Positions 1-17,011 of a DNA stretch of 64,000 nt are shown piece by piece. Both the position numbers and the translations under genes were made by a program. Origin of the DNA: Tsukamurella paurometabola DSM 20162 (GTDB lineage: Bacteria > Actinomycetota > Actinomycetes > Mycobacteriales > Mycobacteriaceae); assembly GCF_000092225.1 (NCBI RefSeq), contig NC_014158.1, forward strand, positions 1,054,001 to 1,118,000, in the 5' to 3' direction. How positions within the stretch are numbered: the stretch's first letter is position 1; the number at the start of each line of letters is the position of its first letter. The notes below the pieces were generated by a model. That model was not told the DNA's origin. It did no database searches and saw only the letters and a program-made list of their open reading frames with translations.

Positions 1-2
1 TC

Positions 3-857: not shown

Positions 858-935
858 CTCCGCGCCCGGCGCCGGACTCCGGGGCGCGTGAAGATTGCTC
901 GATCGGAGTGCTGCCGGTCTGATCGGTCCGCGACG

Positions 936-1253: not shown

Positions 1254-1439
1254 GTATCCCCCCCAAGGTCGACGGACTTTCGCGTCACGAGAATACTCAT
1301 GCCTTGTCGTTCGCGTCTCGCGTATTGCTATAGCGCTACCTACACCGGGTGCCTTCGCTGAGGACGGGGCGTGTGCATTGCAGAGTGTGCGTCAGGAATG
1401 TGCTTGCCGCGTCCATTTCTTCCCCGGGCGGAAGGAAGG

Positions 1440-1844
1440 TCAATCGCCGCTGAGGCCGGTGGCCTTGCGGAGGTGACTGACGCCGGGAAGCCGGTTGACG
1501 CCCTTCTGGACATCGGTGAGCTTATTGGTCACCTCGACCAGCGGCGGCAGTACCGCGTCGAGGGTGTTGAGGGCGGGATCGGCGACAGCGGTCATCCGCT
1601 CGACCCGGTCGATCACGTTGTTCGCCCGTTCGATCATGTCGGCCATCGCCAGCATCATCTTCGGCAACTCGGAGATCAGCTCGATGGTGTCGGGCGGAAT
1701 GGTGCTCAGCTTGCCCACACTGTTCACGGTGCGCCCGGTGTTGTCCATCGCGCGAGTGGCAGCGGAACGCACCGAATCGACCAGACCGGTCATCGAATCC
1801 GAGATCGATGGGGGAACCTTCTCGGGCTCCTTCTTCTTCGCCAT
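1440..1844 (-). CDS. conserved hypothetical protein, amphipathic helical
   Basis: A 134-residue protein starting at ATG with a lysine-rich N-terminus (MAKKKEPEKVPP). The rest is predicted long amphipathic helix (about residues 15-125) with regularly spaced hydrophobics: DSMTGLVDSVRSAAT, ELPKMMLAMADMIERA, VIDRVERM. I recognise no catalytic motif. The pattern resembles small actinobacterial proteins that associate with the membrane or form coiled coils. It precedes a second small gene and accA3 on the same strand, but spacings of tens of bases make co-transcription only possible. Function unknown. Confidence 0.72.
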   Translation of the reverse strand: MAKKKEPEKVPPSISDSMTGLVDSVRSAATRAMDNTGRTVNSVGKLSTIPPDTIELISELPKMMLAMADMIERANNVIDRVERMTAVADPALNTLDAVLPPLVEVTNKLTDVQKGVNRLPGVSHLRKATGLSGD

Positions 1845-1900
1845 GCACAGATCATCGCGCGCAGCCGCGCTGAGCGTGGGGAATTCGCTAGAGCGAAATC

Positions 1901-2128
1901 TCAGAGAGAGGCGCCGAAGCGCGCCACCGCATCACGGGCGGTGCGCAGTCCCTCGGAATCGGGGCCATCGACGGAGATCTCGCCCGACGGGTACAGGGTG
2001 ACCTCGCCGGTCGAATCCCCGGTGGTGTTCACCCGGACGGCCCAGGCATAGGCCTCGTCGGCCGACCAGGCGTCGGGGCGCAGTTCCGTGAGGTACCACG
2101 CCCCGACGTTCAGTCCGATCGGCTCCAC
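1901..2128 (-). CDS. short conserved hypothetical protein downstream of accA3
   Basis: A 75-residue protein starting at a GTG nine bases after the accA3 stop codon, so probably the last gene of the accA3 transcript. The sequence reads as a small alpha/beta protein: a strand-rich middle (EAYAWAVRVNTTGD, GEVTLYPSGEISVDGP) and a helical end (GLRTARDAVARFGASL). No cysteines and no membrane segment. I do not recognise the family. The tight linkage suggests, but does not show, a role with the carboxylase. Confidence 0.7.
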   Translation of the reverse strand: MEPIGLNVGAWYLTELRPDAWSADEAYAWAVRVNTTGDSTGEVTLYPSGEISVDGPDSEGLRTARDAVARFGASL

Positions 2129-2137
2129 GAGCGGGTG

Positions 2138-3946
2138 CTACTCCGAGGACTTCAGCTCGAGCAGCACGGTGCCCTGGGTGACCGCGGTGCCGGGCTCGAC
2201 CGAGAGGCCCGTCACGATGCCGTCCTTATGGGCGGCCACGGGGTTCTCCATCTTCATGGCCTCGAGCACCACGACCAGATCGCCCGCCTTGACCTCCTGG
2301 CCCTCCTCGACGGAGACCTTCACGACGGTGCCCTGCATCGGCGCGGTGACCGAATCACCGGTCGCGGCGACGCCGGCATTGCGGTCACGGGTGCGCGGCT
2401 TGGGCTTGCGGCGGATCACGCCGGCGCCACCGGTGTTGCCGCCCCCGCCGCCGAGCGAGAGCTCGCCGGGCAGCGAGACCTCGACGCGGCGGCCGTCGAC
2501 GACGACGACCACGTTCTGGCGGGGGAGCGAATCGTCTTCCTCCAGCGCCTGGCCACCGGTGTACGGCTCGATCGGGTTCTCCCAATCGGTCTCGATCCAC
2601 TTGGTGTACACGTCGAACTTCTCACCGTCGCCGATGAAGGCGGGGTTGGACACGATGTGCCGGTGGAACGGGATGACCGTGGCGAGGCCCTCGACCTCGA
2701 ACTCGGCCAGCGCGCGCCGCGAGCGCTCGAGCGCCTCCTCGCGGGTCGCGCCGGTCACGATGAGCTTGGCCAGCATCGAGTCGAACTGGCCGCCGATCAC
2801 ATCGCCCTGATCCACACCGGAATCGACGCGGACGCCGGGGCCGGTGGGCTCGCGGTAGACGCTGATCGGGCCGGGGGCGGGCAGGAAGCCGCGGCCGGCG
2901 TCCTCGCCGTTGATCCGGAACTCGAAGCTGTGGCCGCGCGGAGTGGGATCCTCCGTGATCGTCAGTTCCTTGCCCTCGGCGATGCGGAACTGCTGGCGCA
3001 CCAGGTCGATGCCGGCGGTCTCCTCGGTGACCGGGTGCTCGACCTGCAGGCGGGTGTTCACCTCGAGGAAGCTGACCAGGCCGTCGGCCGCGACCAGGAA
3101 CTCGACGGTGCCGGCGCCGTAGTAGCCGGCCTCGCGGCAGATGTCCTTGGCGGACTGATGAATACGGGCGCGCTGCTCGTCGGTGAGGAAGGGCGCGGGA
3201 GCCTCCTCGACCAGCTTCTGGAAGCGGCGCTGCAGCGAGCAGTCGCGGGTACCGGCAACGACCACGTTGCCGTGCTGATCGGCGATGACCTGTGCCTCGA
3301 CGTGGCGGGCCTTGTCCAGGTAACGCTCCACGAAGCACTCGCCGCGACCGAAGGCGGCCACGGCCTCGCGGGTGGCCGACTCGAACAGCTCGGGGATCTC
3401 GTCGATGGTGTAGGCGACCTTCATACCGCGGCCGCCGCCACCGAACGCCGCCTTGATGGCGACCGGCACGCCGTACTCCTTGGCGAAGGCGACGACCTCG
3501 TCGGCGTCCTTGACCGGGTCCTTGGTGCCCGGGGCCATCGGTGCATTGGCGCGCTCGGCGATGTGCCGTGCGGTCACCTTGTCGCCGAGGTCGCGGATCG
3601 AGGACGGCGACGGGCCGATCCAGGTCAGGCCCGCATCGAGCACGGCCTGGGCGAAGTCGGCGTTCTCCGACAGGAAGCCGTAGCCGGGATGGACCGCGTC
3701 GGCTCCGGACTTCTTCGCCGCGTCCAGGATCTTGTCGAACACCAGGTACGACTCGGCGGAGGTCTGGCCGCCCAGGGCGAAGGCCTCATCGGCCAGGCGT
3801 ACGAACTTCGCGTTCGCATCCGGCTCGGCGTAGACGGCGACGCTGGTCAGGCCGGCGTCCCGGGCCGCCCGGATCACGCGGACCGCGATCTCACCGCGGT
3901 TGGCGATGAGCACCTTCTCGATCTTCTTCTCGGCGTGCGCTGCCAC
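2138..3946 (-). CDS. accA3: acyl-CoA carboxylase alpha subunit: biotin carboxylase plus biotin carrier
   Basis: The 602-residue alpha subunit carboxylates its own biotin with ATP and bicarbonate and hands the carboxyl group to beta subunits such as AccD5 (about 11.4 kb away in this window) to make malonyl- or methylmalonyl-CoA. The N-terminal carboxylase domain starts at [17 protein letters not shown]. The ATP-grasp glycine loop is [11 protein letters not shown] and the catalytic region [14 protein letters not shown]. The C-terminal biotinyl domain carries the acceptor lysine in EAMKMENP (Lys about 565). The GTG start has a GAGGAG ribosome site a few bases upstream. Length matches mycobacterial AccA3. 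Confidence 0.96.
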
Positions 3947-4026
3947 TCAATCTCCTCGTTCCAGGCTGCGCCGGGGTGGGCGCGCAGCCGTCTGTTACAC
4001 CCGTTGTCGGGCCAGGCTCCAGACGA

Positions 4027-4032
4027 AGTCTA
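4027..4032 (-). promoter_or_regulatory. candidate -10 box of accA3
   Basis: On the minus strand this reads TAGACT, a good actinobacterial -10 hexamer, 80 bases upstream of the accA3 GTG. No convincing -35 is visible. It is the best promoter candidate in the 130-base gap between accA3 and the upstream acyltransferase gene. Confidence 0.4.
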
Positions 4033-4075
4033 TGCCTCGCCCGCTGTGGCGCACGCGACAGTACCCCCGCAGTCG

Positions 4076-4093
4076 GGTTACCCACGGGTAACC
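4076..4093. promoter_or_regulatory. 18-bp palindrome upstream of accA3
   Basis: GGTTACCC-AC-GGGTAACC, with perfect 8-bp arms. It overlaps the stop codon of the PapA-like gene and lies 43 bases upstream of the candidate accA3 -10 box. As RNA the loop would be very tight, so a DNA-binding site is at least as likely as a terminator. Confidence 0.4.
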
Positions 4094-5538
4094 GTTGCGT
4101 CGCCGATCTCGGTCAACATCGACCGTAGCGCGCCGAGGTACAGCGTGAGGCTGCGGCGCGCGGTGTCGAAGCCGGGGAACCGGGCCGCGACGTGCAGTCC
4201 CGACGGGGTGCGCAGCATCCACAGATAGACGTCATCGAGGGAGTAGTCGCGTGAGCGCAGCGCACTCGCACCGCCGGCATCGTTGATCGCCGATCCGGGT
4301 GCCGACCGGGTGTCCATGAAGGACACGACGAAACGCGGCGGCGGGGCCTGGGCATGACCGGGCTCCTGCGCCAGCACCTCGCCGATCCGTAGGTAGGGCA
4401 GGGTGCTGCCGGTCTTCGAATGCCGCCACTGCTCCTGTGCCCGCTGGGCCAGCTCGCCGAAGGTGCGAGCGCCCGTGGTGTCGAGCCGGAACGGCGCGAT
4501 GCCCACGAACCAGCCGAGCGCCGCGATCCACTGCTCGGCGTCACGGGTGTGCCGGGTGACCGCGCAGCGGAAGATCGGACCGAAGCCGAGGTCGGTGTTG
4601 ATCTTCGCCATACAGGCGAGGACGCCGGTCACCAGGCTGGCACCGGCCTCGGAGCAGACCCGGGTGAAGTTGTTGGCCCGCTCGTCGTCGAGCAGGTGGA
4701 AGTTCAGGGCGTTCTGCGGCATCCGGGGCACACCGTCGGGATCGAGGGTGAGCGCGGCGAGGGTCTCGTCGGCGAGCACCTTGGCGCTGGGCGGCAGCAG
4801 TGGCATCGGGAACGGTGAGGGCTGATAGCCGGTCTCGGTGAGGTACTCGTCCCAGAGCATCGCGGCGGGATGGGCGGCGGTGGCCCGGTCGGCGGACTGC
4901 CGGTCGGTGTCCGAATAGTTGACGTAGCTACCCGCGGGGATCAGCTTCGGTTCGTCGCCGTGCACCGCCTGCCGATACAGTTCGCGCAGTTCGTACGGGC
5001 TCAGGATCAGCGAATAGCCGTCCAGCAGAGAGTGATCGGCGGCGAAGAAGAGGGTGAACGAGTCCTCGCGCGCCACGGTGGAGAACATGTATGCGGGCCA
5101 GGTCAGTGGGGCCGTCGCCCGGTCGAACTCGCCGAGCAGCTGTTCCGCGAGCGGTTCGGTGGAGTTGTACGTGCCCACCGTCTGCACCTTCAGATCGACG
5201 GTGTCGATCTGCGCGCTGCGCCGGCGCGGCGCACCGTCCTCCAGGAAGACGTGCGTGCGCAGCACCTCGTGCCGGTCGATCCAGGCCCGCAGCGCGGTGC
5301 GCAGGCCCGGGATCGACAGCGGCTCGTCGAATTCGACGCCCAGGCCCAACCAGGACTCGCGGCCGCCGTCGATGTGCCGGCGCCGCAGCACCGCCTCGGC
5401 GCCCCGCAGATGCGCCTCGTGCACGTGCGAGGTGGCCCGCGGGTCATCGCGCCACTGCGCCGCCGGCCCGGTCGTGGGGACCCAATTGCGGAGCTCGCCG
5501 GGGCGCAGCGGGTAGGCGTCGATCTCGGTGAACTGCAT
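4078..5538 (-). CDS. PapA2/PapA3-like acyltransferase (condensation fold)
   Basis: A 486-residue condensation-domain acyltransferase. The catalytic motif is DHSLLDG (HxxxDG; His at about residue 165). The layout, with a long N-terminus, FRCAVTRHTRDAEQW, ALGWFVGIAPFRL and FVVSFMDTRSAPGS, resembles mycobacterial PapA1/A2/A3, which acylate trehalose or sulfotrehalose. I chose ATG 5538 because the family sequence begins there; the open frame extends upstream only as low-complexity Arg/Pro. It follows sufE by 14 bases, so it is probably the end of the sseA-sufE transcript. In M. tuberculosis, as I recall, sufE is followed directly by accA3, so this gene looks inserted. Substrate unknown. Confidence 0.85.
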   Translation of the reverse strand: MQFTEIDAYPLRPGELRNWVPTTGPAAQWRDDPRATSHVHEAHLRGAEAVLRRRHIDGGRESWLGLGVEFDEPLSIPGLRTALRAWIDRHEVLRTHVFLEDGAPRRRSAQIDTVDLKVQTVGTYNSTEPLAEQLLGEFDRATAPLTWPAYMFSTVAREDSFTLFFAADHSLLDGYSLILSPYELRELYRQAVHGDEPKLIPAGSYVNYSDTDRQSADRATAAHPAAMLWDEYLTETGYQPSPFPMPLLPPSAKVLADETLAALTLDPDGVPRMPQNALNFHLLDDERANNFTRVCSEAGASLVTGVLACMAKINTDLGFGPIFRCAVTRHTRDAEQWIAALGWFVGIAPFRLDTTGARTFGELAQRAQEQWRHSKTGSTLPYLRIGEVLAQEPGHAQAPPPRFVVSFMDTRSAPGSAINDAGGASALRSRDYSLDDVYLWMLRTPSGLHVAARFPGFDTARRSLTLYLGALRSMLTEIGDATVTRG

Positions 5539-5552
5539 GGCTGCTCGCGAGA

Positions 5553-5987
5553 CTACGCCGCGAGGCGCCGCTTGATCCGCGTCAGCATCGCCGACATGCC
5601 ACGCAGGCGCAGCGGACTGACCACCGAGTCCAGCCCGAGGGCGTGGTGGAAATCGTCGGGCACCGCGGCGATGGCGGCGGCGGACTGCCCGTCGAGGCCC
5701 TGCGCCAGGATCGACGCGAAGCCGCGCGTGGTGGGAGCCTCGGGCGGGGCGCTGAAGTACAGCCGCACCGCCGCGGGATCCGAGGCGTCCACGTCGAGGA
5801 AGAGCGGCGACTGGCATTCCGGCACCGGTTCCATGGCGGCCGCGGTCAGGTGCTCCGGCAGCTCCGGCAGCTCCCGCGAGAACTCCAACAGCAGTTCGAG
5901 GCGGTCCGGCTCGCCGACAGCGGCGAAATCGTCGATGATCTCCTGCAGCGCGGCCGGGGTCGCGGCCCGGCCGTCCGCCGCGCTCAC
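5553..5987 (-). CDS. sufE: SufE family sulfur acceptor protein
   Basis: A 144-residue SufE/CsdE protein that takes persulfide sulfur from a cysteine desulfurase for Fe-S cluster assembly. The acceptor cysteine is in [10 protein letters not shown], matching the SufE VPGCQS motif. The N-terminal helix ([24 protein letters not shown]) and C-terminal [14 protein letters not shown] are typical. The start is taken as the GTG at 5987, overlapping the sseA stop codon by GTGA, which implies translational coupling. Longer open frame upstream runs inside sseA and is not SufE-like. Confidence 0.9.
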
Positions 5988-6877
5988 GAGCCCGGTACGG
6001 AGCCCGGCTCGGCGCCCCGCGTGATCGGTGCCCGCACGGTGTTGCCCCACTCGGTCCACGAGCCGTCGTAGTTCTTGACGTCGGTGAACCCCAGCAGGTG
6101 CGTCAGCACGAACCACGTGTGACTCGAACGCTCACCGATCCGGCAGTACGCCGTCACGGGAGCCGCCGGATCCAGATCGCCGTACACCGCGCTGAGCTCG
6201 GCGTGCGGCAGGAACCGTCCATCGGCGCGGGCGGCCTTGGCCCACGGGATCGACACAGCGGTGGGGATGTGGCCGCCGCGCAGCGCCCCCTCCTCCGGAT
6301 AGTCGGGCATATGCGTGCGCTCGCCCGTGTACTCCTGCGGTGACCGCACGTCGACGAGGGCACGGCGGCCCAGATCGGCCCGCACCTCGTCGGCGAACGC
6401 GCGGATCCGCGCGTCGTCGCGCTCGACCACCGGGTAGTCACTGCGTGGGTAGTCGGGGCGGTCCAGCGAGACATCGCGGCCGTCGCTGATCCACAGATCG
6501 CGGCCGCCGTCGAGCAGGCGCACGTCCGGATGGCCGAACAGGGTGAACACCCACAGCGCGTAGGCGGCCCACCAGTTCGACTTGTCGCCGTAGATCACCA
6601 CCGTGTCGTCGCGGTTGATGCCCTTGCTGCGCATCAATTCCGCGAAGGCCTCGCCGTCGATGTAGTCGCGGGTGACGGCGTCGTTGAGGTGCAGATGCCA
6701 ATCGACCTTCTGCGCCGTGGGGATGTGCCCGATGTCGTAGAGCAGCACGTCCTCATCGGACTCGATCACCTTCAGGCCCGGCACACCGAGGTGCCCGCTC
6801 AGCCAATCGGCGGTGACGAGGCGTTCGGGGTGCGCGTAGTCCTGCAGCTCGGGGCTGGGATCGGTCTCGATGGCCAC
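5984..6877 (-). CDS. sseA: thiosulfate sulfurtransferase, two-domain rhodanese
   Basis: A 297-residue tandem rhodanese. The inactive N-terminal domain (about residues 20-140, [31 protein letters not shown]) precedes the active C-terminal domain, whose loop [13 protein letters not shown] holds the catalytic cysteine. It moves sulfane sulfur from thiosulfate or related donors and is coupled to sufE by a GTGA overlap, so the pair probably feeds persulfide to Fe-S assembly. The start is the GTG at 6877; the open frame upstream lacks family similarity. It follows the acyltransferase cassette by 38 bases. Confidence 0.93.
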
Positions 6878-6915
6878 GCCCGCAAGCCTAGCGGTCGCGG
6901 AGGACGGGCGTCGGC

Positions 6916-8217
6916 TCAGACGGGGGAGCGGTGTACCAATTCCGCTACTGCACCGTCGACCACCGCCGACAGGTCCTCCGCGGCGGCGAGGTTGGTCGCC
7001 GCGAAGAGGGAGGTCTCGTCGTCGGTACCGGTCCATCCCACGTACAGGTACGGCGGACGGGGGCCGGTCTCCCTGCCGGGCAGGTTCGACCAGGCGAGGC
7101 GGAACCAGGCGCGATCGGCGGGGGTCCCATCCGGGGCACGGACCGGTGCGGGGAGCGCGCCCACGCCGGCGCAGGTGGTGACCGGGCGCGCAGGATCCGG
7201 CGGTGCATCGATCAACGCGGCGAGGGTGCGCCGGGGCAGCAGGGTGATGAGCGGACCGAAGACGTCGTAGCGGCCCTCGTCACCCAGGCCGGCGAGAGTC
7301 TGTTTGACCGAACCGCGCAGTGCCGCGATGCCTTCCGGACCGGCGCCCGGGTCGACGGTGATCTCGGCGTCGACGATCGCATTACCGCGTAGGTCACCGT
7401 CGGTGCGCCGGTTCACGGACAGGCCCAGTACGGCGGCACCGTCGGCGGGCTGCACCCAGCCCAGCGCGTCGGCGATCGCTCCCGTGACGCCGAACAGCAG
7501 GGTGGTCTCGGTACCGCCGAGTGCGGCGGCGCGGGCGGCGAGCGCGGTCCGGTCCAGGTGCGCGACGGTCCACCGGTCGGGCCCGACGGGGTGCGGCGGT
7601 GCCGCGGCGACGGACGGCGCCAGCCGGCCCTTCGCGAGCTTGGACGCCGCGGCGACGGCCCGTACGGCCGCGGGAAGCTGGCGGGCGGTCAGTGCGGCAT
7701 CGCGGGGCGCCGACCGCCACACCGGTGCGGCCTCCCGCGGGTAGGGCAGCTCCCGGGCCGTGCCCAGGGCGGCCTCGGCCGCAGCGGTGGCGGCGCCCAC
7801 ACCGTCGGCCAGGACGTGCGAGACCACCAGCGTCACAGCCGATCCGCCATCCGTGAGCGGGAGGACGCCGAGATGCCAGCCCGGCCCGGACCACGGGTCG
7901 ATCGGTACGGCGGCACGCTGGTCGACCCAGGTGTCGATCTCCTCCCGAGGCCGTGGCTGTGCCACCACAGCGATCTGCGGAGCGGCGGAACTGGCCACCC
8001 AGCGGTCGCGGCCGAAGGGAAGCGGGGAGGCGGCGACCCGGCGGCCGAGCAGGCCGCGGGCCAGTGCCCGCCGGAAGGTCTCCAGGCCTTCGAGGTCGAC
8101 GCCGTGGTCGTAGATCCAGACGATCTGAATCAGCGAGTTACGGCCCGTGGCACGGGTTCCCGCCGCCGCGCCCTGGTCGACGAAGGCAAGCAGATCGGTC
8201 GCCGCGGGTCGACTCAT
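6916..8217 (-). CDS. condensation-fold acyltransferase, last gene of glycolipid-type cassette
   Basis: A 433-residue protein of the condensation/WS-DGAT fold. The catalytic motif is SHVLADG (HxxxDG), near residue 135. The second half contains [20 protein letters not shown] and [15 protein letters not shown], resembling the nucleotide-free acyltransferase core, then [10 protein letters not shown] near the end. It differs clearly from the three PapA5-like genes upstream. It starts at an ATG that overlaps the previous stop by ATGA. No carrier or adenylation domain is present, so acyl-CoA is the likely donor. Acceptor unknown; by context a glycosylated lipid. Confidence 0.82.
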
Positions 8218-9473
8218 GCGGCCGCTCCCACGGGCTCGGTGAGCGCGGTCTCGATGCGGGAACGGATGCGCCGCACTGCCTCGTCGGTCAATGTGCCGGG
8301 GGCGTAACGGAGTTCGATCGAGAGCCGGCCGCCGAAGGTGAGAGCGTGATAGTGCAGCCCCACCAGCGGGGCGAGCGCCTCGGGCGGTGCACTGTGCACC
8401 AGTGCCCGGACCCGCTCGATATCGACCTCGGAGCTGGTGTGGAAGTCGAGCACCTCGACCCCCTCGGGGGTGGCCGGTTCCGGTATCGCGCCGATGTTGC
8501 TCAGCCGTACCGGCGCTCCGCCGGTCACCTGCACGCCTGCGGCGCCGGTGAGAGCGGCGGCGACGGTTCCGTCGGCGAGGTCGGACTTGAGCCGGTCCAG
8601 CACGATCCGGCCGATCTCCTCGGGCACGGCGTCACCGCGCACCGCGACCGGTGCCGTCGACGAGCCGGCGAAGTTCGTCACCGCTGCCGCCTCGACGGGG
8701 GGATCGCACCGTCCGCGCAGGTCGACGGGGCTGAACACGGCCATGCTCACCGCCTCCTCGGCGGGCCGGTCGAGTTCGGCCCGCTCGGCGGTCACGATCA
8801 GTCCGGCGAGCAGCCCGTGCACGCTCAGGCCCGCGGCCTTGGCGCGACGGCGCAGCGCATCGGTGGCGGCGGCGTCGATCTGGATCCGATCGAAGCCGAA
8901 GGCGCCGCCGTCGACCGTCGCCGCCGTGGGCACGACGCCCGCGGATTCGACCGCGGCTGCGGTGAATCTCGGTGCGCCGGAGACATCGCCGAGCCGGCCG
9001 GCCAGATCGAGCGGCGCCGCCGGCAGCTCGGTGACCGGCCCGGCGAAGGACGACGGGTCGGTGTACAGCTGCCACAGCCGTAGATTCAGGAAGAGCGCGT
9101 GCGCCCCGTCCGCGACGGCGTGGTTGACGCCCAGCGTCACCCGGTGCAGGTCGCCGTCCGAGACCAATTGCACCGCGGAGATACCCGTATCGGGCTGCAC
9201 GCCGAGGGCCACATCGCCCGCCACGAACGCACGCTCCTCGACCAGGATCGGGGCGGCGTCCTCGTCCACCGGGACGTCGGGGGTGACCAGGTCGAAACCG
9301 AACGCAGTGGCCTCGATCCGGCCGGTGAGCTCCGGGTACTCGCGGCGCAGCGCGGCGTAGGCGCGCGCCAGCCGGGCGGCATCGATCGGGCCGCGGGCGA
9401 GGAAGCTGCCGCTGGAGGTGGTGTTGGTGACCACGTACGGCACCTCCAGGGGAGTCAGTGCACGACGGGCCAT
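8214..9473 (-). CDS. PapA5-like acyltransferase
   Basis: A 419-residue protein with the catalytic motif NHAVADG (His about residue 130). Other PapA5-family marks are RALTPLEVPYVV at the N-terminus, VFSPVDLRGRCDPP, the RLKSDLADGTV segment, RLSNIGAIPEP and TFGGRLSIELRY at the C-terminus. In mycobacteria PapA5 esterifies diols with mycocerosic acids; here the partners are unknown. The ATG at 9473 lies one base after the glycosyltransferase stop, and the stop overlaps the next start by ATGA. Both facts place it firmly in the operon. Confidence 0.85.
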   Translation of the reverse strand: MARRALTPLEVPYVVTNTTSSGSFLARGPIDAARLARAYAALRREYPELTGRIEATAFGFDLVTPDVPVDEDAAPILVEERAFVAGDVALGVQPDTGISAVQLVSDGDLHRVTLGVNHAVADGAHALFLNLRLWQLYTDPSSFAGPVTELPAAPLDLAGRLGDVSGAPRFTAAAVESAGVVPTAATVDGGAFGFDRIQIDAAATDALRRRAKAAGLSVHGLLAGLIVTAERAELDRPAEEAVSMAVFSPVDLRGRCDPPVEAAAVTNFAGSSTAPVAVRGDAVPEEIGRIVLDRLKSDLADGTVAAALTGAAGVQVTGGAPVRLSNIGAIPEPATPEGVEVLDFHTSSEVDIERVRALVHSAPPEALAPLVGLHYHALTFGGRLSIELRYAPGTLTDEAVRRIRSRIETALTEPVGAAA

Positions 9474-9474
9474 C

Positions 9475-10863
9475 TCACACCTCCGCCGGGGCGAGCGGCA
9501 CCGGTGCCGGGGCCGTGAAGTCGACGGTGGCGGGTGCCGCGATGGTCTCGACCAGTCTGCCCGCGACATCGACCCCGTCGTCCTCGGCGATGGACTCGAT
9601 GATCAGCGCGGCCCGGCGGGCGGGGATGTCACCGAGGTCGATCAACGACGAGGTGCGCTGCGCGCGGCGGCGGGTGGCCGGATCGAGCAGCTTGTCGAAG
9701 GCGGCGTGCAACCGTTCCGGGGTGACGTTGCGCATCGGGAGGCAGGCGCCGACGCCGAGGTCGGTGACCCGCGCGCCCCAGAAGGGCTGATCGGCGAGCA
9801 CCGGGCAGATCAGGGTGGGCAGGCCGGCGCGCAGCGATGCGGCGGTGGTGCCGGCGCCGCCGTGGTGCACGGCGGCGGCGCAGTGCGGGAGTACCTCCGA
9901 GTGCACGACCTCGTTGACGACCCGCATGTGGTCGCCGAGGTCCTCACTGGTGAGATCGCTCCAGCCGGAGACGATGAGTCCGCGCCGGCCCCGCTCCTTG
10001 CAGACCTGCGCGAAGATGCGGGCCTTGCCGTCGGGGTCGGCGATCCGCATGCTGCCGAAGCCCCAGTAGATCGGCGCATCGCCGGCCTTGATCCAGTCCA
10101 TCAGGTCGGCGTCGGTGCGGGACTGCTTGCCCTCGCGCAGCCACGCGTCCGAGGGCACCTCCAGGAAACCGAGCATCGGCCGGGTGCGGCTGAACTCGGG
10201 CACCAGATCGGGGGTGAGGGCGGGGTCGTAGAGCTGCAGATCGACGATCTCGTGGGCGTCGCGGTTCTTCGCGCGCCGCGAGCGGTACGGCGCCTCGCCG
10301 ACCGACATGCGGTGGAAGTTGACGGCGGCGCGCACGTGCGTCCAGGTGAACGAGTCGCCGAGCGCCCAGGTGGCCCGCTTGACCATGCGCGGCGACCGCG
10401 ACAGCACATCGCTGGTCAACCCGGCCGGGGTGTACTGCGTCATCGGGTACACGCTGTTGGTGGTTCCAGGGAAGAATCGGTAGCTGATGATCGAGGCGCC
10501 GGTGCGGCGAGTGATGGGCAGCGCGAAATCGACCGCGTCCGAATGGGTCAGCACCACATCGGCGTCGCGGCACACGGTCTCGATCTCGTACGAGATGGTG
10601 GCGATGTTGCGCACCAGGAACCGGCCGTAGGCCCGCATCCGCTCCACCGGTCGGTGGATCACCTCGCGGTAGTCGTCGTCGTAGTCGGGGACGATCTCGT
10701 TGAGCCGGTGCGCGTCGATACCCGCGGAGCGGATCAGCTTCACCAGCGGATCACCCATCGCGGCGATCGTCACATCGTGCCCGCGGCTCTGCAGCGCCAG
10801 CCCGATCGCGATCGTGGGTTGGACATCGCCTCGGCTGCCCATAGCGAGGATGCACACCTTCAT
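9475..10863 (-). CDS. GT1 (MGT/UGT-like) glycosyltransferase
   Basis: A 462-residue glycosyltransferase with a GT-B fold. The N-terminus MKVCILAMGSRGDVQPTIAI is the acceptor-binding signature of the sterol/macrolide/glycopeptidolipid GT family. The C-terminal donor site has YWGFGSMRIADPDG, then HHGGAGTTAASLRAGLPTL and CPVLADQPFWGARV. The nearest known types are rtfA/gtf enzymes of mycobacterial glycopeptidolipids. It should add a hexose or deoxyhexose from a nucleotide sugar to a lipid or sugar acceptor. The start overlaps the upstream membrane gene by ATGA. Confidence 0.9.
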   Translation of the reverse strand: MKVCILAMGSRGDVQPTIAIGLALQSRGHDVTIAAMGDPLVKLIRSAGIDAHRLNEIVPDYDDDYREVIHRPVERMRAYGRFLVRNIATISYEIETVCRDADVVLTHSDAVDFALPITRRTGASIISYRFFPGTTNSVYPMTQYTPAGLTSDVLSRSPRMVKRATWALGDSFTWTHVRAAVNFHRMSVGEAPYRSRRAKNRDAHEIVDLQLYDPALTPDLVPEFSRTRPMLGFLEVPSDAWLREGKQSRTDADLMDWIKAGDAPIYWGFGSMRIADPDGKARIFAQVCKERGRRGLIVSGWSDLTSEDLGDHMRVVNEVVHSEVLPHCAAAVHHGGAGTTAASLRAGLPTLICPVLADQPFWGARVTDLGVGACLPMRNVTPERLHAAFDKLLDPATRRRAQRTSSLIDLGDIPARRAALIIESIAEDDGVDVAGRLVETIAAPATVDFTAPAPVPLAPAEV

Positions 10864-11564
10864 GATCGGTTCGTCCTTTCGACGTTCTTCGGTGACGGGG
10901 CCAGGGGACGGTCGTCAGTGGCAGTGGTAGCCAGCGCCGCCCGGACGGGGCGGAGCAGCAGCAGGGTGATCGGCGCGATCGGCACGGCGACCAGCAGGGG
11001 GATCACCTGACAGGCGACCACCGCGTAGTCGATGGGCAGGGCCAGCGCCGCGGTCACCGAGGCGCCGGTGCTCACGGCGACCGCGACCAGCCAGAGCGGG
11101 TCGATCGCGGAGACGGCGCGCACGGTGTCCGGCGCCACCCGCACCCGGCGGTTCCAGGCCTGCGCGCGCTCGGTGTCGCCGCGGACCGTGAGCCGCATGA
11201 TCAGGGTGGCCACCGCCCGGCGGCGCAGCACCAGGCCGGCGACGATCGCCACGAACATCAGGCCGCCGATGCTGGTCTCCACCAGCAGGATCACACGCGG
11301 GCTGCCCGAGATGGCGGCGGCCACGATGGAGCAGGCGAGCAGGGTGAGGGTGAAGATCTCCAGCGGATCGGTGGCACGCCGCCGGAACGTGCGCACCAGG
11401 ATCCGGGTGGCCACCACAGTGGTGCCCGCGAGCAGCGCGATCAGCTGGCCGACACCCACCAGGTAGCGCAGCGCGAAGTACACACCGAGCTGCAGGGCGA
11501 CATCGACCAGAAGCGCCACCGGCGGTGCCGGCGGCGACTCGGTGTCGGCGAGGGGAACGCTCAC
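10860..11564 (-). CDS. multi-pass membrane protein, VC0807-like
   Basis: A 234-residue integral membrane protein with about six hydrophobic spans (residues 16-40, 40-58, 70-85, 98-112, 150-170, 175-205). The loop RLTVRGDTERAQAWNRRV is typical of the VC0807/YciB-like family, from memory. No transporter signature is seen. GTGA and ATGA overlaps on both sides tie it between acyltransferase and glycosyltransferase genes. It may help move or organise the product at the membrane; that is inference. Confidence 0.75.
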   Translation of the reverse strand: MSVPLADTESPPAPPVALLVDVALQLGVYFALRYLVGVGQLIALLAGTTVVATRILVRTFRRRATDPLEIFTLTLLACSIVAAAISGSPRVILLVETSIGGLMFVAIVAGLVLRRRAVATLIMRLTVRGDTERAQAWNRRVRVAPDTVRAVSAIDPLWLVAVAVSTGASVTAALALPIDYAVVACQVIPLLVAVPIAPITLLLLRPVRAALATTATDDRPLAPSPKNVERTNRS

Positions 11565-12853
11565 GCGGCCGTCCCGACCTCGAGCAGCGCGTGCGCGCCG
11601 GCCTCGATGCGGCTCAGAATGCGGGTGCGGGCCTCGGCGCCGAGAGTTCCGGGGAGCACGCGCATCTCGATCGACAGGCGACCTCCGAAGGTGGAGATCA
11701 GGTAGGACGAGCCGATCGGGGCGGGCGGCGCACCGTCACCCTGCCAGGTGGCGGCGTACTCACGGATCCCGGCGGCACTGCGCACGATCTGCGAGTGGAA
11801 GTCCAGCACCTCCAGCGACCCGGGCACCGTGAGCGCGGGGAACTCGCCCAGGTTGCTGATCAGGACGGGCGGGCCGTGGCGGCGCGTCGCGAGGTCGGGC
11901 ATCGGGCTCACCGCGGTGCGCAGCACGGTTCCGTCGCGGACGTCGGAGCGGATGGTGTCGGCGACGATGCGAGCGATCGCCTCCACCGCATCGTCGCGCA
12001 CGGCGACGTAGGAGAAACCGCACAGCGCGGTCACCGAGCGCAGCGGGATGGGCGGATCGATGCGGCCACGGAAGTCCACCGGGGTGAGCAGCGCCAACGC
12101 CGCGTCGTCGTCGGATTCGGCGAGTTCCGCGCGGGCGATGAGGCCGCTCACCAGTGCGTGCGCGGAGAATCCGTGTGCGCGGGCGGTGGCCGCCAGGGCC
12201 GCGGTGGCGGCGGTATCGAAGCGGACGCGGATCGCGTCGTCGCTGTCCGGCGTCTGCGGTGCGGCGGGCTCGGCCGGAGCGGGGACGGCGCCGTGCCAGC
12301 TGGTGCCCGCCAGTCGCTCCTCGTAGTCGAGTTCGCCGGGGGTGTGCCCGCGGGCGGCCATGACCAGGTGTGGCTCGGACGGGAAGTCGCGGGCGGTGCG
12401 CACGATCGGGGTCGCGCCACTGGCGAAGGCGGTGTACAGCTCGAACAGGCGGGTCGCGATGGCCACGATGCCGGAGCCGTCGGTGGCGGCGTGGCTGGCC
12501 CAGAGGGTGAGGCGGTAGCTCTCGCCGAGGCCCGTGAGGGTGATGGCGGAGAGTTGCTCGCTGCCGACGAACCACGGTGGCGTCTGGTCGTAGCCGGTCC
12601 ACGGTGCGGCGACGTCCTGGAAGCCGATGGCGGAGGCCACCGCCGGATCGCCCGGGGCGAAGTGCGGTTTGCCGCCGAGCGTGACGATCCGGGCCGAGAG
12701 CACCGGGTACTCCTCGAGCAGAGCGCCGTAGGCCGCGCGCAGCGCCGTGCTGTCGACGGTGCCGCGCAGCTCGAAAGACGTGCCGATCACTTCGCGCGAG
12801 GTGGGGCGGACGAACGAGGCCTCCGAGAAGGTCAGTGCGCGGTAGGTCTGCAT
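11561..12853 (-). CDS. PapA5-like acyltransferase
   Basis: A 430-residue condensation-fold acyltransferase with catalytic SHAATDG (His about residue 120). It shares with its neighbours the PapA5-type signposts ALTFSEASFV, LTPVDFRGRIDPPIP, DTIRSDVRDGTV, LISNLGEFPAL and STFGGRLSIEMRV. ATG 12853 is preferred over the longer frame because family similarity begins there. It sits 22 bases after the first gene of the cassette. The several paralogs differ enough to suggest different positions or acyl chains rather than recent duplication. Confidence 0.85.
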   Translation of the reverse strand: MQTYRALTFSEASFVRPTSREVIGTSFELRGTVDSTALRAAYGALLEEYPVLSARIVTLGGKPHFAPGDPAVASAIGFQDVAAPWTGYDQTPPWFVGSEQLSAITLTGLGESYRLTLWASHAATDGSGIVAIATRLFELYTAFASGATPIVRTARDFPSEPHLVMAARGHTPGELDYEERLAGTSWHGAVPAPAEPAAPQTPDSDDAIRVRFDTAATAALAATARAHGFSAHALVSGLIARAELAESDDDAALALLTPVDFRGRIDPPIPLRSVTALCGFSYVAVRDDAVEAIARIVADTIRSDVRDGTVLRTAVSPMPDLATRRHGPPVLISNLGEFPALTVPGSLEVLDFHSQIVRSAAGIREYAATWQGDGAPPAPIGSSYLISTFGGRLSIEMRVLPGTLGAEARTRILSRIEAGAHALLEVGTAA

Positions 12854-12875
12854 GGCGTCTCCTGATTCGATCCGG

Positions 12876-14138
12876 TCACGCCGCGGGGGCGAGGCGGGCG
12901 GCGGCGTGGACGAGGGCGGTGATCCGGTCGGCGACGGCGGCGCGGGCGGCAGGGGAGGCGGTGCCGCCCAAGGTGATCGCTTCGATGCCGAGCCGGCCGC
13001 GGAAGGTCGAGGCCTGGAAGATAGTGGCCGACGGCGACGGGCGGCGCTCACCGCCCGGACCGTGCAGGGCCGTCGAATCCATCGAGATGATCGGGCGGAG
13101 ATGCTCGGCGACCACGTTCTCCGGGAGGTCGAGTGCGAGCGCGCCGAGGTTGCTCAGTACCACCGGCGGTTCGGCGGGGCCTGGAGCCGCGGGCGCGGCC
13201 AGCACATTGAGGCTGCGACCGGTGGCGACATCGGCACGCACGGCGTCGGCGACGGCGATGCCCACACCGATCGGATCGGCCAGGGCGGTCAGCTCGGGCG
13301 CGGCGAAGGAGGCGCCCACGAAGTTGGTGACCGCGGTGGGCGCCAGTGCGGGCTGCACCCGGCGGCGCAGGTCCACCAGCGTCATGGCGCCGATCCGGAT
13401 GGCATCGGCGGGATCGGCGTCCACGAAGCCCGACCGCTCAGCGCACAGCAGCACGCCGGAGAGCAGTGCGTTCACGCCCACACCGGTGGCGGCTGCCGCG
13501 AACCCCGCGGTGACCTCCTCGGAGAACCGCAGCGAGGCGACCTCGGGCAGGCGGGGCGAGGGCCCGGCCGGCAGGGTGGGGGCGGCGCCGAACCAGCGGA
13601 TGCCGTCGAGGCGATCGCGACCGGTATCGGTCCCGGTCGGTACGTCGCGCAGGATGTCCTGCGCGGAGGTGGGGAAATCATGCGGGGTGACTCGCTCGAT
13701 GGTGCGCGAGCCCACCAGGGCCGTGTAGTGCGACCAGAGCTGCGAGAGCAGGGTGAACAGGTAGGTACCGTCGCCGAGCGCGTGATTGACGGCCAGGCTG
13801 ACGCGGTGCCGGGCGTCGGCGGTGACCACGTGCAACCGGCCCAGCGCCGTCGCGGGATCGATCAGCGGCGTGGCGCCGACCGGAGGCAGGGCGTCGACCC
13901 ACTCGACGGTCAGGCGCGCGCCCGCAGCGTCGGCGGGCGCGGCGAAGACGAAGTCGTCCCCCTCGGGCAGGACGACGGCGTCGAGCGCGGGGTGCGCCGA
14001 ACGGAGCGCGGTGAACGCATCACTGAGGGCCGCGAGATCGAGGTCGCCGAGCAGGGTCAGCTCGAAGGCGACGGTGGTGGGGTAGGCGCCCACGAAGCCA
14101 CGCTCGGACGATGCGAGTCGGCGAAGCGGTGCGGTCAT
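12876..14138 (-). CDS. PapA5-like acyltransferase, first gene of the cassette
   Basis: A 420-residue condensation-fold acyltransferase. The catalytic motif is NHALGDG (His about residue 125). Signposts LTLVDLRRRVQP, DAVRADVATGRSLNV, VVLSNLGALAL and STFRGRLGIEAIT match the PapA5 group. The ATG at 14138 begins the conserved part (MTAPLRRLASSERGFVG). Upstream is a 289-base, relatively AT-rich gap that must hold the operon promoter. The six genes from here to 6916 overlap or nearly abut and read as one transcript. Confidence 0.85.
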   Translation of the reverse strand: MTAPLRRLASSERGFVGAYPTTVAFELTLLGDLDLAALSDAFTALRSAHPALDAVVLPEGDDFVFAAPADAAGARLTVEWVDALPPVGATPLIDPATALGRLHVVTADARHRVSLAVNHALGDGTYLFTLLSQLWSHYTALVGSRTIERVTPHDFPTSAQDILRDVPTGTDTGRDRLDGIRWFGAAPTLPAGPSPRLPEVASLRFSEEVTAGFAAAATGVGVNALLSGVLLCAERSGFVDADPADAIRIGAMTLVDLRRRVQPALAPTAVTNFVGASFAAPELTALADPIGVGIAVADAVRADVATGRSLNVLAAPAAPGPAEPPVVLSNLGALALDLPENVVAEHLRPIISMDSTALHGPGGERRPSPSATIFQASTFRGRLGIEAITLGGTASPAARAAVADRITALVHAAARLAPAA

Positions 14139-14427
14139 GGCGCGGTTCCTACCTGTAGGCGGTTCCTGGTGATGCCATGACGCTAAAACGCCGTCCATTC
14201 CTTTCGCGAGCCGAAAGAGTGGTGTCGATCGTCACTGTCATTCGGGGTTGACCCAGGTTGCGTTAACCGGCGCGAGTGCTGGTTCGGTGAATCTTCGCTG
14301 ACTGAACGGTGTTTTGTTACTCGCGAGTTGCTGAGTGTTCCGAGCTGGGGAAACGTTCTGGCTCCGTGGAGTTAACGCAATGCTTACGCATGAAACACGC
14401 CGAAACTGTGACGTCCGCCACCCCGCA
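14139..14427. promoter_or_regulatory. control region of the acyltransferase cassette with a 10-bp inverted repeat
   Basis: This gap between maf and the cassette is noticeably richer in A and T than its surroundings. TTGCGTTAAC (14258-14267) and its exact complement GTTAACGCAA (14371-14380) form an inverted repeat 103 bases apart. A possible minus-strand -10 (TAGCGT) lies at 14180-14185, about 40 bases before the first start codon. No gene is visible here. The paired sites could bind one regulator cooperatively, and AT-rich DNA of this kind is often bound by Lsr2. Confidence 0.45.
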
Positions 14428-15108
14428 TCACGCCGGATCCGGCACTCCCCGCCACAGGTCGACCACGCCGACCCCGAGTTCGCTCAACAGCCGGCGCATC
14501 AATGGCAATGAAATGCCGATCACCGAACTCGGGTCGCCGTCGATCCCCTCGATGAACCAGCCGCCGAGACCGTCCAGGGTGAACGCGCCCGCCACTTCGA
14601 GCGGTTCACCGGTGGCCACGTAGGCGTCGATCTCGGCGTCCGACGGTGCGCCGAATCGCAGCGTGGTACCGCCCGTGCCGGTGGCCTCGCGGGGCGGCGC
14701 ACCGTCGCCGTCGAGGAGCAGGACACAGTGGCCCGTCAGCAGGCGACCCGCGCGGCCGCGCATCGCGCCCCATCGCTCGCGGGCGACCGCCGGGGTGTGC
14801 GGCTTGCCGACTAGGGCTCCGCCGATCGAGAGCATCGAGTCGCAGCCCACGATCACGGTGCGACGGGCCCGCGCAGACGGATCGTCCGTGACCCGGGCGG
14901 CCACATCGTGGGCCTTGGCGCGAGCCAGCGCGGTCACCGCATCCTCATGCGCCGCATCGGATCCCAGTTCGGCGAGGATCGCATCCTCGTCGACCTGCGA
15001 GACGATCACGGCCGGTTCGACCCCGGCCGCGCGGAGCACGCCCAGACGCGCCGGCGAGGCCGACGCGAGCACCAGCCCGACCGGGCCGGTTACGAGCCCT
15101 TGGTCCAA
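14428..15108 (-). CDS. maf: Maf-family nucleotide pyrophosphatase
   Basis: A Maf/HAM1-like house-cleaning pyrophosphatase acting on non-canonical or modified NTPs. Motifs: VLASASPARLGVLRAAG at the N-terminus, VDED, VGCDSMLSIGGALVGKP with the catalytic Asp, GRAGRLLTGHCVLL, and the C-terminal FTLDGLGGWFIEGIDGDPSSV. The start is uncertain. The TTG at 15108 gives 226 residues, near the usual length and overlapping accE by 19 bases. The GTG at 15072 would begin at VLASASP and shorten the first strand. It ends the accD5-accE-maf transcript. Confidence 0.88.
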   Translation of the reverse strand: MDQGLVTGPVGLVLASASPARLGVLRAAGVEPAVIVSQVDEDAILAELGSDAAHEDAVTALARAKAHDVAARVTDDPSARARRTVIVGCDSMLSIGGALVGKPHTPAVARERWGAMRGRAGRLLTGHCVLLLDGDGAPPREATGTGGTTLRFGAPSDAEIDAYVATGEPLEVAGAFTLDGLGGWFIEGIDGDPSSVIGISLPLMRRLLSELGVGVVDLWRGVPDPA

Positions 15109-15365
15109 AACAGAGGGGTCTGGCTGGTGAAGGCGTTGGGACCGTTGAAGTACTGCGGCCGCAGGCGTTCCCGGGTGTCGCCCCACAGCGACTTCAGCTC
15201 GGCGGAACTCCGCGGAGCCGAACCCGACGCCGCGGCGAGCACCGTCACGATGGCGGCGACGTCGGCTGCCGACGGGTTGCCCCGCTCGAACCGGATCGCC
15301 GCGCGCAGCTTCTCCGCCTCGGCCTCGGGGACCTTCGCGGCCTCCACCGGCTTATCGGCGCTCAC
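15090..15365 (-). CDS. accE: acyl-CoA carboxylase epsilon subunit
   Basis: A 91-residue AccE protein. The recognisable part is [20 protein letters not shown] (the epsilon core RGNPSaeElAAL-x-vl), followed by [12 protein letters not shown]. It stabilises the complex between AccA3 and AccD5 and activates it. The GTG start overlaps the accD5 stop by GTGA, so accD5 and accE are translationally coupled, as the stoichiometric complex would require. Confidence 0.9.
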
Positions 15366-17011
15366 AGCGGGATGTTCCCGTGCTTCTTCGGCAGCGTGAT
15401 CGCCACCTTGCGCTCGAGCATGTTGAGCGCCGTCACGATCTGGCCGCGGGTGTGCGAGGGCGGGATCACCGCGTCGACGTAGCCGCGCTCGGCCGCCACG
15501 TACGGGTTGACCAGGGTGTCCTCGTACTCCTCCTGGAGCTTCAGGCGCAGGGCGTCGACGTCCTCGCCCTTCTCGGCGGCCTCGGCCAGCTCCTTGCGGT
15601 ACACGAAGCCGACGGCGCCCGAGGCGCCCATCACCGCGAACTGGGCGGTGGGCCACGCCAGGTTGATATCGGCGCCCATGTCCTTGCTGCCCATCACGCA
15701 GTACGCGCCGCCGTAGGCCTTGCGGGTGACCACGGTGATCTTCGGGACGGTGGCCTCGCCGTAGGCGTAGAGCAGCTTCGCACCGCGGCGGATGATGCCG
15801 TCGTACTCCTGGCCCGTACCCGGCAGGAAGCCGGGCACGTCGACCAGGGTGATGATCGGGATGTTGAAGGCATCGCAGAACCGCACGAAGCGCGCGGCCT
15901 TCTCCGAGGCGTCGATGTCGAGGCAACCGGCCAGCTGGGTGGGCTGGTTCGCCACCAGGCCCACGCTGCGGCCGTCGATCCGGCCGAAGCCCACGATGAT
16001 GTTCATCGCGCGCTGCGGCTGGATCTCGAGGAACTCGTCGTCGTCGAGCAGGCGGCGGATCACCTCGTGCATGTCGTACGGCTGGTTCGGCGAATCCGGG
16101 ATCAGCGTGTCGAGCTCGCGGTCCTCGTCGTTGACCGACTCCTCGATCGACCCGGTGAGCGGGTCGGTCGGCACGAAGCGCGGCGCCTCGGCGCGGTTGT
16201 TCGAGGGGAGGTAGGTCATCAGCTCGCGCACGTAGTCGAGTGCGTCCTGCTCGCCGGAGGCCACGTAGTGCGCGGTGCCCGACTTGCTCATGTGGGTCTG
16301 GGCGCCGCCCAGCTCCTCCTTGGTGACCTCCTCGCCGGTCACGGACTTGATCACGTCCGGGCCGGTGATGAACATCTGGCTCTCGTGATCGACCATGACC
16401 ACGAAGTCGGTGAGGGCGGGGGAGTACACGTGGCCACCGGCGGCCGCGCCCATGATCACCGAGATCTGCGGGATGACGCCCGACGCCTGGGTGTTGCGGA
16501 AGAAGATCTTCGAGTACAGGGCGAGCGAGACCACGCCCTCCTGGATGCGCGCGCCGGCACCGTCGATGATGCCCACCAGCGGGCGGCCGGTCTTAGTGGC
16601 CAGGTCCATGACCTTGACGATCTTGTCGCCGTAGACCTCGCCGAGCGAGCCGCCGAAGACGGTGGAGTCCTGGCTGAAGACGCACACCTCGCGGCCGTCG
16701 ATGGTGCCGTAGCCGGCCACCACGCCGTCGCCCACGGGGCGCTTGGCGCCCATGCCGAAGTTGGTGGAGCGGTGCTGCGCCAGCTTGTCGAGCTCGACGA
16801 AGGAACCCTCGTCGAGCAGCGCCAGGACGCGCTCGCGGGCGGTGAGGCGGCCCTTCTCGTGCACGCGGTCGATCGCGGCCTGCCCCATGGGGGCCAGGGC
16901 CTGCGCGTCACGCTTGCGGAAGTCGGCCAGCTTGCCAGCGGTGGTGTGGATGCTGGGCTCGGCGCCGTCAGCGCCGGGAGCCGCGCCGTCGGTGGTGGAG
17001 GCACTCGTCAT
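15362..17011 (-). CDS. accD5: propionyl/acyl-CoA carboxylase beta subunit
   Basis: A 549-residue carboxyltransferase that transfers the carboxyl group from AccA3-biotin to propionyl- or acetyl-CoA, giving methylmalonyl-CoA for methyl-branched lipids. The N-half holds [18 protein letters not shown] and the oxyanion loop [10 protein letters not shown]. The C-half holds [20 protein letters not shown], then [14 protein letters not shown]. Length equals that of mycobacterial AccD5 (548). ATG 17011 is preceded by TAGAGT and seven bases, so the mRNA is probably leaderless. It heads accD5-accE-maf. Confidence 0.96.

Follow-up and report, generated by a model that had tools for sequence, protein, structure and literature searches.

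What does a compact set of acyltransferase, glycosyltransferase and membrane-protein genes make when it sits inside an acyl-CoA carboxylase locus, and is it a recent insert there? We addressed this question in Tsukamurella paurometabola DSM 20162 (genome of 4,479,724 bases, two contigs) using a 64-kb stretch of DNA, C1:1054001-1118000, called the window throughout. Six co-directional, tightly spaced minus-strand genes, which we call the cassette (positions 6916-14138), lie within the order accD5, accE, maf, g6, g5, g4, g3, g2, g1, sseA, sufE, condA and accA3, all on the minus strand; accA3 and accD5 are names that we presume to fit the flanking carboxylase genes. On balance, we favour the explanation that this is a glycolipid locus with a constant acyltransferase gene, condA, and an exchangeable elaboration module, the cassette being the Tsukamurella edition of a locus that recurs in related genera. 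A first-pass annotation had drawn attention to the cassette; its observation is confirmed here, and its interpretation is partly supported and extended.

Composition of the cassette

The layout and position of the genes, like the families, catalytic motifs and conservation given below, were observed directly. Six compact genes overlapping at ATGA or GTGA or lying at most 22 bases apart had been described, and the coordinates and junctions bear this out. In the upstream half, g6 and g5 are separated by a 22-bp gap, g5 and g4 share a 4-bp GTGA overlap and g4 and g3 a 4-bp ATGA overlap; downstream, g3 and g2 are 1 bp apart and g2 and g1 overlap by 4 bp (ATGA). Across the six genes and five species pairs, the ratio of nonsynonymous to synonymous substitution rates (dN/dS) was 0.04-0.28, and all six are under purifying selection. 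Because the order is also complete in 11 of 16 Tsukamurella genomes, the cassette is more than a chance arrangement.

Three of the four cassette acyltransferases (g2, g5 and g6) exceeded the Pfam gathering score of 30 bits for PapA_C (scores in Table 1). Against the NCBIfam PapA5 subfamily model they reached 192.8, 176.1 and 169 bits, compared with a cut-off of 396, and equivalog cut-offs were also missed; by these models they are classified as PapA5-like, not PapA5 proper. The best solved match of g2 was PapA5 (1q9j, E = 8e-13), the phthiocerol/phthiodiolone dimycocerosyl transferase, which has the PapA_C domain and the HxxxDG motif in common with all three, although the trio falls far below the PapA5 cut-offs and no modular polyketide synthase (PKS) lies in the window. 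Identities over aligned parts of 28.5-36.6% (g2/g5 37%, g2/g6 29%, g5/g6 30%) mark them, on sequence divergence, as old paralogues and not fresh duplicates. The catalytic HxxxDG that had been noted in all four acyltransferases is retained in g1 in 11 of 11 Tsukamurella genomes and in each of g2, g5 and g6 in 12 of 12 genomes, including Gordonia effusa. PapA_C genes number four in T. paurometabola, three of them within the cassette, and the family was matched in none of 14 control genomes. The fourth, very divergent from g2, g5 and g6, lies outside the cassette (L169, about 7497-8516; C1 near 1719500), near a transposase-like frame recognized by eye. Separately, chain 8s6l appeared as a dimycocerosyl transferase in one listing and as the AzeD dehydratase in another, and was not used as evidence.

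The fourth cassette acyltransferase, g1, had been singled out as different yet of condensation fold, and this held. Its WS_DGAT_cat (PF03007) score of 17.6 bits lies below the gathering score of 23.6, compared with 246.4 bits for the window's true WS/DGAT gene (56714-58120). An AF2 model (pLDDT 69.9, pTM 0.75) gave 222 Foldseek matches at E <=0.001 (best 2e-13, TM-scores of about 0.4-0.6), and among the matches listed most were condensation-fold enzymes, so that all four cassette acyltransferases are plausibly of this fold.

The earlier count of three PapA5-like enzymes among four cassette acyltransferases stood, but the locus holds five, since condA had been missed. The closest solved relative of condA is the trehalose-2-sulfate acyltransferase PapA2 (6aef, E = 4.5e-28; next match 3.3e-6), by which it would be a PapA1/2/3-type enzyme with predicted trehalose acylation activity. 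Mycobacterial acyltrehalose and sulfolipid loci carry PapA1, PapA2 and PapA3 with Pks, FadD and MmpL. The likeness to them lies in multiple condensation-type acyltransferases for a putative trehalose core, with condA closest to PapA2; the differences are that the window is without a modular PKS and that the cassette trio belongs to the PapA_C family. The statement that the locus has no PKS or nonribosomal peptide synthetase (NRPS) was borne out for modular enzymes across the window, because no called gene exceeds 917 amino acids; ligases were not searched for.

A GT1 glycosyltransferase and a membrane protein had been proposed for the remaining genes, and both assignments agree with our results. 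g3 has EryCIII-like_C (PF06722) and GT28 domains, and its motifs GSRGDVQP, HHGGAGTT and DQP[FY]W were present in 12 of 12 genomes; we take HHGGAGTT to be the donor site and GSRGD an N-terminal motif. It is classified by these domains as a GT-B glycosyltransferase of GT1/GT28 type. Its solved relatives are GtfA/GtfB and sterol 3-beta-glucosyltransferases, from which it differs in that its operon holds no peptide or polyketide core gene; the glycosyltransferases of glycopeptidolipids and phenolic glycolipids are presumably comparable. g4 exceeded the cut-off of the VC0807 family (NF041646, 100.1 against 65 bits), and its AF2 model is all-helical (pLDDT 79), with no usable match to solved folds in a structural search. 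The family name was not found in the literature searched, and a role for g4 in a glycolipid pathway is a guess. Second VC0807 genes occur in T. paurometabola (C1:1996582-1997163, L178) and in G008 (L177), each adjoining a GT2-like gene (by eye); near the former are a TetR-like gene and a GT1 paralogue (L003).

Comparison of the carboxylase block across the family

The first-pass annotation had held that the cassette looks inserted between maf and sseA and had proposed comparing this interval across relatives. We sampled 61 genomes from the family, 55 of which had sseA at E 1e-90; three were Tsukamurella, and the block was read in the other 52, with genes assigned by tblastn and a few blocks cut by contig ends. 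Rather than a simple insert, the comparison revealed a recurring locus. In 9 of the 52, the block has one or two GT1 homologues of g3 (31-43% identity), three PapA homologues and condA, and g1- or WS-type proteins were present in all nine. Six genomes have this set between maf and sseA (G481, G475, G505, G494, G405 and G315), two have it before sseA with maf beyond the DNA fetched (G498 and G175), and one has it between accD5 and maf (G082). Two further genomes (G401 and G370) carry two PapA-type genes and an MFS transporter. The acyltransferase trio differs in family, being PapA_C in the window and PF00668 in the Tsukamurella genome G006 and in homologues elsewhere.

Presence of a PapA module went with presence of condA, which was found, between sufE and accA3, at all 11 loci with such a module (nine trios, two pairs) compared with 9 of 41 others (Fisher p 2.8e-6, uncorrected for kinship, the 11 loci falling in five genus labels). 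One of these nine (L142) was labelled altPapA by BLAST and grouped with condA in the tree.

The idea of an insertion was half right: in 8 of 52 genomes (L108, L113, L121, L125, L140, L141, L149 and L155; tblastn extents) no more than about 300 bp separate maf from sseA, but nine genomes have an analogous set in the same block, and within Tsukamurella the cassette looks old. We reject a recent insertion between maf and sseA as the whole story, in view of these analogous modules together with a g5 relic and a g1/g2 pair found elsewhere in Tsukamurella (below). In L125 the module lies on the other side of maf. The contents of individual blocks varied: Pfam assigned an ABC exporter pair and a GT2 gene in L114 and an esterase-family gene in L111, while by eye L115 seems to have the same two features as L114, and L125 a GT2 gene. 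In G498 (L163), another PapA trio lies upstream of the first, accompanied by GT1 and WS/g1-type genes of its own. In L119 (G260), where condA is present, a minus-strand open frame of ~8.5 kb with an NRPS-like N-terminus (positions 2-8515, running off the end of the stretch; by eye, with no family search) adjoins sseA, which is on the opposite strand.

Distribution and history within Tsukamurella

Orthologues of g3 (at least 86% identity) were found in 11 of 16 Tsukamurella genomes, our own included, or 13 when paralogues were counted at 1e-30, and all 11 have the full six-gene order between maf and sseA. Carriers include T. pseudospumae JCM 13375 (L036) and T. ocularis. T. tyrosinosolvens NCTC13231 also has an intact cassette at the equivalent site, and its accD5 is identical to that of G015. 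condA stands at its own position in all 16 genomes, including two (G010 and G012) in which the cassette site is empty. In G011, a contig edge falls inside a g2-like gene (58%) adjoining a g1-like gene (55%).

Two genomes, G006 and G009 (L060 and L062), carry a different module in the maf-sseA interval. It consists of a g5-like remnant of 288 to 310 amino acids that lacks HxxxDG, a pair of Condensation-type PapA proteins plus a third Condensation-type protein, a GDSL hydrolase, an MFS transporter and a WS-like protein with no Pfam match. Pfam assignment was done on the G006 copies, whose trio is PF00668, and the closest solved relative of the G006 Condensation-type PapA (altPapA) was PapA2 (E 1.1e-34). 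The remnant was sister to all g5 sequences (100/99, with a warning for long branches), and its dN/dS of 0.45 was the highest of ten genes compared between the two genomes.

A tree built from four flanking proteins put G010 and G011 at the base, made G012 the sister of T. pseudospumae (100/100) and placed G006 and G009 among cassette carriers with moderate support (G006 with T. sputi, 93/94; G009 at an open fork); the PapA5-like set required four changes on this tree. Read most simply, these sequences point to an ancestral PapA5-like set that some species lost and others exchanged for a Condensation-type one. An old origin of the cassette within the genus is suggested by the g5 relic and by the divergent g1/g2 pair of G011, a basal genome.

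The same core block (carboxylase subunits, Maf, sulfurtransferase and purE) is carried by NZ_LR134451.1, the 416-kb 'plasmid 9' of T. tyrosinosolvens NCTC13231, which therefore looks like a piece of chromosome filed as a plasmid. Beyond T. tyrosinosolvens, a search of plasmid DNA returned 12 records that covered just 1-2% of the query.

The five-gene block of Gordonia effusa and wider searches

Outside Tsukamurella, Gordonia effusa NBRC 100432 carries g6-g5-g4-g3-g2 without g1, flanked by Clp ATPase-like and PRC-barrel-like genes (named by eye). Its glycosyltransferase is 86% identical to that of the query and its accD5 78%, while within Tsukamurella accD5 is the more conserved (94-98% versus 86-94%). 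Trees place the G. effusa glycosyltransferase, g5 and g6 in nested positions next to those of T. paurometabola and its closest relatives (99/89, 98/94 and 97/94; g2 80/87), the block has a GC content of 65% compared with 60 and 61% in its flanks, and the VC0807 gene was found at 1e-8 in this genome only among 59 Gordonia genomes. Judging from trees and composition, which also underlie the module replacement proposed above, the block was apparently acquired by horizontal transfer. Upstream of g6, the blocks GTGACGAT and CTTAG are conserved in an alignment of nine Tsukamurella sequences and recognizable by eye in G. effusa, so the five-gene unit probably moved with its own promoter region. At its own maf-sseA site, G. 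effusa has a WS-like gene and two Condensation-type genes, with condA after sufE, so that two modules can coexist. It also has two separate clusters of Condensation-type PapA homologues (L074 and L075) besides the transferred cassette. The first-pass annotation had named a PKS or NRPS beside the same genes in relatives as an observation that would count against it; inspection by eye showed none adjoining the five genes of G. effusa, where no family search was made.

Wider searches scored the best 4 to 7 candidates per genome in an even sample of genomes and can therefore overlook infrequent carriers, of which G. effusa is an example. Across the class, a g5 profile at E 1e-30 matched 2 of 394 genomes, both Tsukamurella, and a VC0807 profile at 1e-10 matched nine, seven of them outside the genus; the neighborhoods of these seven (about 3-3.5 kb each, by eye) contained HAD, MFS and GT4-like genes among others, with no PapA or GT1 seen. 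Across the order, a glycosyltransferase profile at 1e-60 matched 3 of 397 genomes, the third (G036) being a paralogue elsewhere, and the VC0807 profile at 1e-20 matched two.

Candidate product and alternatives

The chemistry of Tsukamurella oligosaccharide esters has been on record since 1998 (as cited in PMC4365757), and T. tyrosinosolvens DSM 44370 is reported to make tri- and tetrasaccharide esters, including a trisaccharide with two acyl groups on each of two sugars (PMC4365757). Trehalose diesters are listed in the same review for T. pulmonis, T. spumae, T. pseudospumae and T. tyrosinosolvens (PMC4365757), and in the tsukalipids of T. pseudospumae IV19-045 the C-2 position bears stearate and a short acid is also present (PMC9321207). 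In the literature searched, no publication assigning genes to the Tsukamurella oligosaccharide esters was recognized by title or the start of the abstract. A close counterpart is in Rhodococcus sp. I2R, a producer of succinic saccharide esters, where papA3-papA1-papA3 is followed after 1507 bp (by subtraction of published table coordinates) by another papA3 (PMC8396431). Among homologues of TlsA, a trehalose lipid synthase implicated in the formation of succinoyl trehalose lipids, these four genes came closest, at about 30% similarity, and the authors named them as putative sugar-ester lipid genes (PMC8396431). The I2R cluster thus resembles ours in its several clustered acyltransferases, a gap fitting sseA-sufE and a further papA; compared by description, it differs in having PapA1/PapA3-type enzymes, with no glycosyltransferase, VC0807 or g1-type gene named alongside in the portion available (PMC8396431). 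A 2026 paper takes a papA3 gene close to a glycosyltransferase gene, within an NRPS cluster of Rhodococcus, as a hint of trehalose esters (PMC13206832).

The likeliest product, by analogy, would be a multiply acylated, glycosylated trehalose or oligosaccharide lipid, a tri- or tetrasaccharide with about four acyl chains. Three lines point to an acylated trehalose lipid: the PapA2-like neighbour, the parallel sets elsewhere and the chemistry of T. tyrosinosolvens. The glycolipid proposed in the first-pass annotation is thus supported, from context, as the likeliest product, and the suggested link to Tsukamurella oligosaccharide lipids is strengthened, since T. tyrosinosolvens NCTC13231 has the cassette and DSM 44370 of the same species is reported with tri- and tetrasaccharide esters (PMC4365757). 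We infer the acceptor, the order of steps, the sugar, the acyl chains and the part played by g4 from context. condA would place the first acyl group or groups on trehalose from acyl-CoA, g3 would add a further hexose, g6, g5, g2 and g1 would add acyl chains of differing length to the hydroxyls still free, and g4 may assist in lipid retention or movement at the membrane. condA would be the constant element, while the neighbouring module would be Condensation-type (PapA2-related) in several other genera and two Tsukamurella species and, in most Tsukamurella, three PapA5-like enzymes with g1, the GT-B enzyme g3 and the VC0807 protein g4. The match between four cassette acyltransferases and four acyl chains is suggestive only. 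A more specific version is possible though doubtful: that the PapA5-like trio, VC0807 protein and glycosyltransferase form a mobile unit with its own promoter that replaces the Condensation-type PapA module, with the VC0807 protein a new factor in glycolipid translocation or assembly and the tetra-acylated tri- and tetrasaccharide lipids of Tsukamurella the product.

Several observations weigh against this explanation. By the families found, the cassette has no sugar-nucleotide, fatty-acid-activation or known exporter genes. In the glycosyltransferase tree, whose deep forks are left open, 12 cassette enzymes (clade 100/100) and 14 enzymes from equivalent loci formed separate clades; descent of the former from the latter is unsupported, as the cassette clade is not nested in the locus clade. 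The species T. pseudospumae bears the cassette, and other strains of it are reported, in the portions available, with trehalose diesters only (PMC9321207, PMC4365757). The fit of the 1507-bp I2R gap to sseA-sufE comes from published coordinates, not from sequence (PMC8396431). Finally, the G. effusa block lacks both g1 and an adjoining condA, which is on another contig, so trehalose need not be the acceptor.

In a rather unlikely alternative, g3 glycosylates a non-trehalose acceptor (a hydroxylated lipid, a sterol-like compound or a carotenoid alcohol) and the acyltransferases esterify the sugar. Such a glycoside would fit the likeness of g3 to GtfA/GtfB and sterol 3-beta-glucosyltransferases, whose aglycones are hydrophobic, and the survival of the five-gene unit away from condA in G. 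effusa; it is countered by the PapA2-like gene nearby in 16 of 16 Tsukamurella genomes and by the analogous modules that other genera hold in the same block. Less probable again, and in our view improbable, is that the cassette makes its own sugar esters on a head group built by g3 while condA serves a separate trehalose-diester pathway. Such independence would explain condA in both empty-site genomes as in all other Tsukamurella, in 9 of 41 non-Tsukamurella genomes without a PapA module and beside trehalose diesters reported from four species (PMC4365757), but not its presence at all 11 PapA-module loci of other genera. Tailoring of a polyketide or peptide made elsewhere, resembling phthiocerol dimycocerosates, phenolic glycolipids or glycopeptidolipids, with a polyketide diol as the substrate of the PapA5-like enzymes, is very improbable: PapA_C is indeed the family of the phthiocerol dimycocerosyl transferase PapA5, but all three enzymes miss the PapA5 cut-offs, and no modular PKS or NRPS was found in the window (the rest of the genome was not searched) or seen by eye in G. 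effusa.

Features of the locus

Coordinates are collected in Table 1. The T. tyrosinosolvens gene at the position of accA3 is annotated as acetyl/propionyl/methylcrotonyl-CoA carboxylase subunit alpha. Towards the far end of the window are two fatty acid desaturase genes (60685-61941 and 62647-63933), with a ferredoxin-reductase-type gene (59527-60576) upstream of them.

Table 1 Genes and candidate regulatory region of the maf-sseA locus, in window coordinates
Feature	Position	Strand	Evidence or remark
accA3, acyl-CoA carboxylase alpha subunit (flank)	2138..3946	-	Position-equivalent T. tyrosinosolvens gene annotation
condA, PapA2-like condensation-type acyltransferase, between sufE and accA3	4078..5538	-	HSLLDG; PF00668 74.3 bits
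sufE (flank)	5553..5987	-	PF02657
sseA, rhodanese/sulfurtransferase (flank)	5984..6877	-	PF00581
g1, divergent condensation-fold acyltransferase (plausible)	6916..8217	-	HVLADG; PF03007 17.6 bits, sub-threshold (cut-off 23.6)
g2, PapA5-like acyltransferase (PapA_C)	8214..9473	-	HAVADG; PF16911 204.8 bits
g3, predicted GT-B glycosyltransferase (GT1/GT28 type)	9475..10863	-	PF06722 69.2 bits; GSRGDVQP, HHGGAGTT
g4, VC0807-family membrane protein	10860..11564	-	NF041646 100.1 bits; six predicted transmembrane helices (hydropathy)
g5, PapA5-like acyltransferase (PapA_C)	11561..12853	-	HAATDG; PF16911 190.5 bits
g6, PapA5-like acyltransferase (PapA_C), first operon gene	12876..14138	-	HALGDG; PF16911 157.2 bits; start ATG 14138
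maf-g6 intergenic region, candidate promoter/operator	14139..14427	-	Blocks conserved across Tsukamurella
maf (flank), start uncertain	14428..15108	-	PF02545
accE, carboxylase epsilon subunit (flank)	15090..15365	-	Position-equivalent T. tyrosinosolvens gene annotation
accD5, acyl-CoA carboxylase beta subunit (flank)	15362..17011	-	Position-equivalent T. tyrosinosolvens gene annotation

Implications

The six cassette genes and condA provide a concrete candidate set for the sugar lipids of Tsukamurella, and the cassette gives VC0807-family proteins a functional context. The two empty-site species are natural knock-outs, and the two that combine a Condensation-type PapA module with a g5 relic lacking HxxxDG are a natural swap. 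If G012, the sister of T. pseudospumae, were T. spumae, plain trehalose diesters would not need the cassette. Beyond the genus, these results mark one chromosomal block for sugar-ester lipid genes across related genera.

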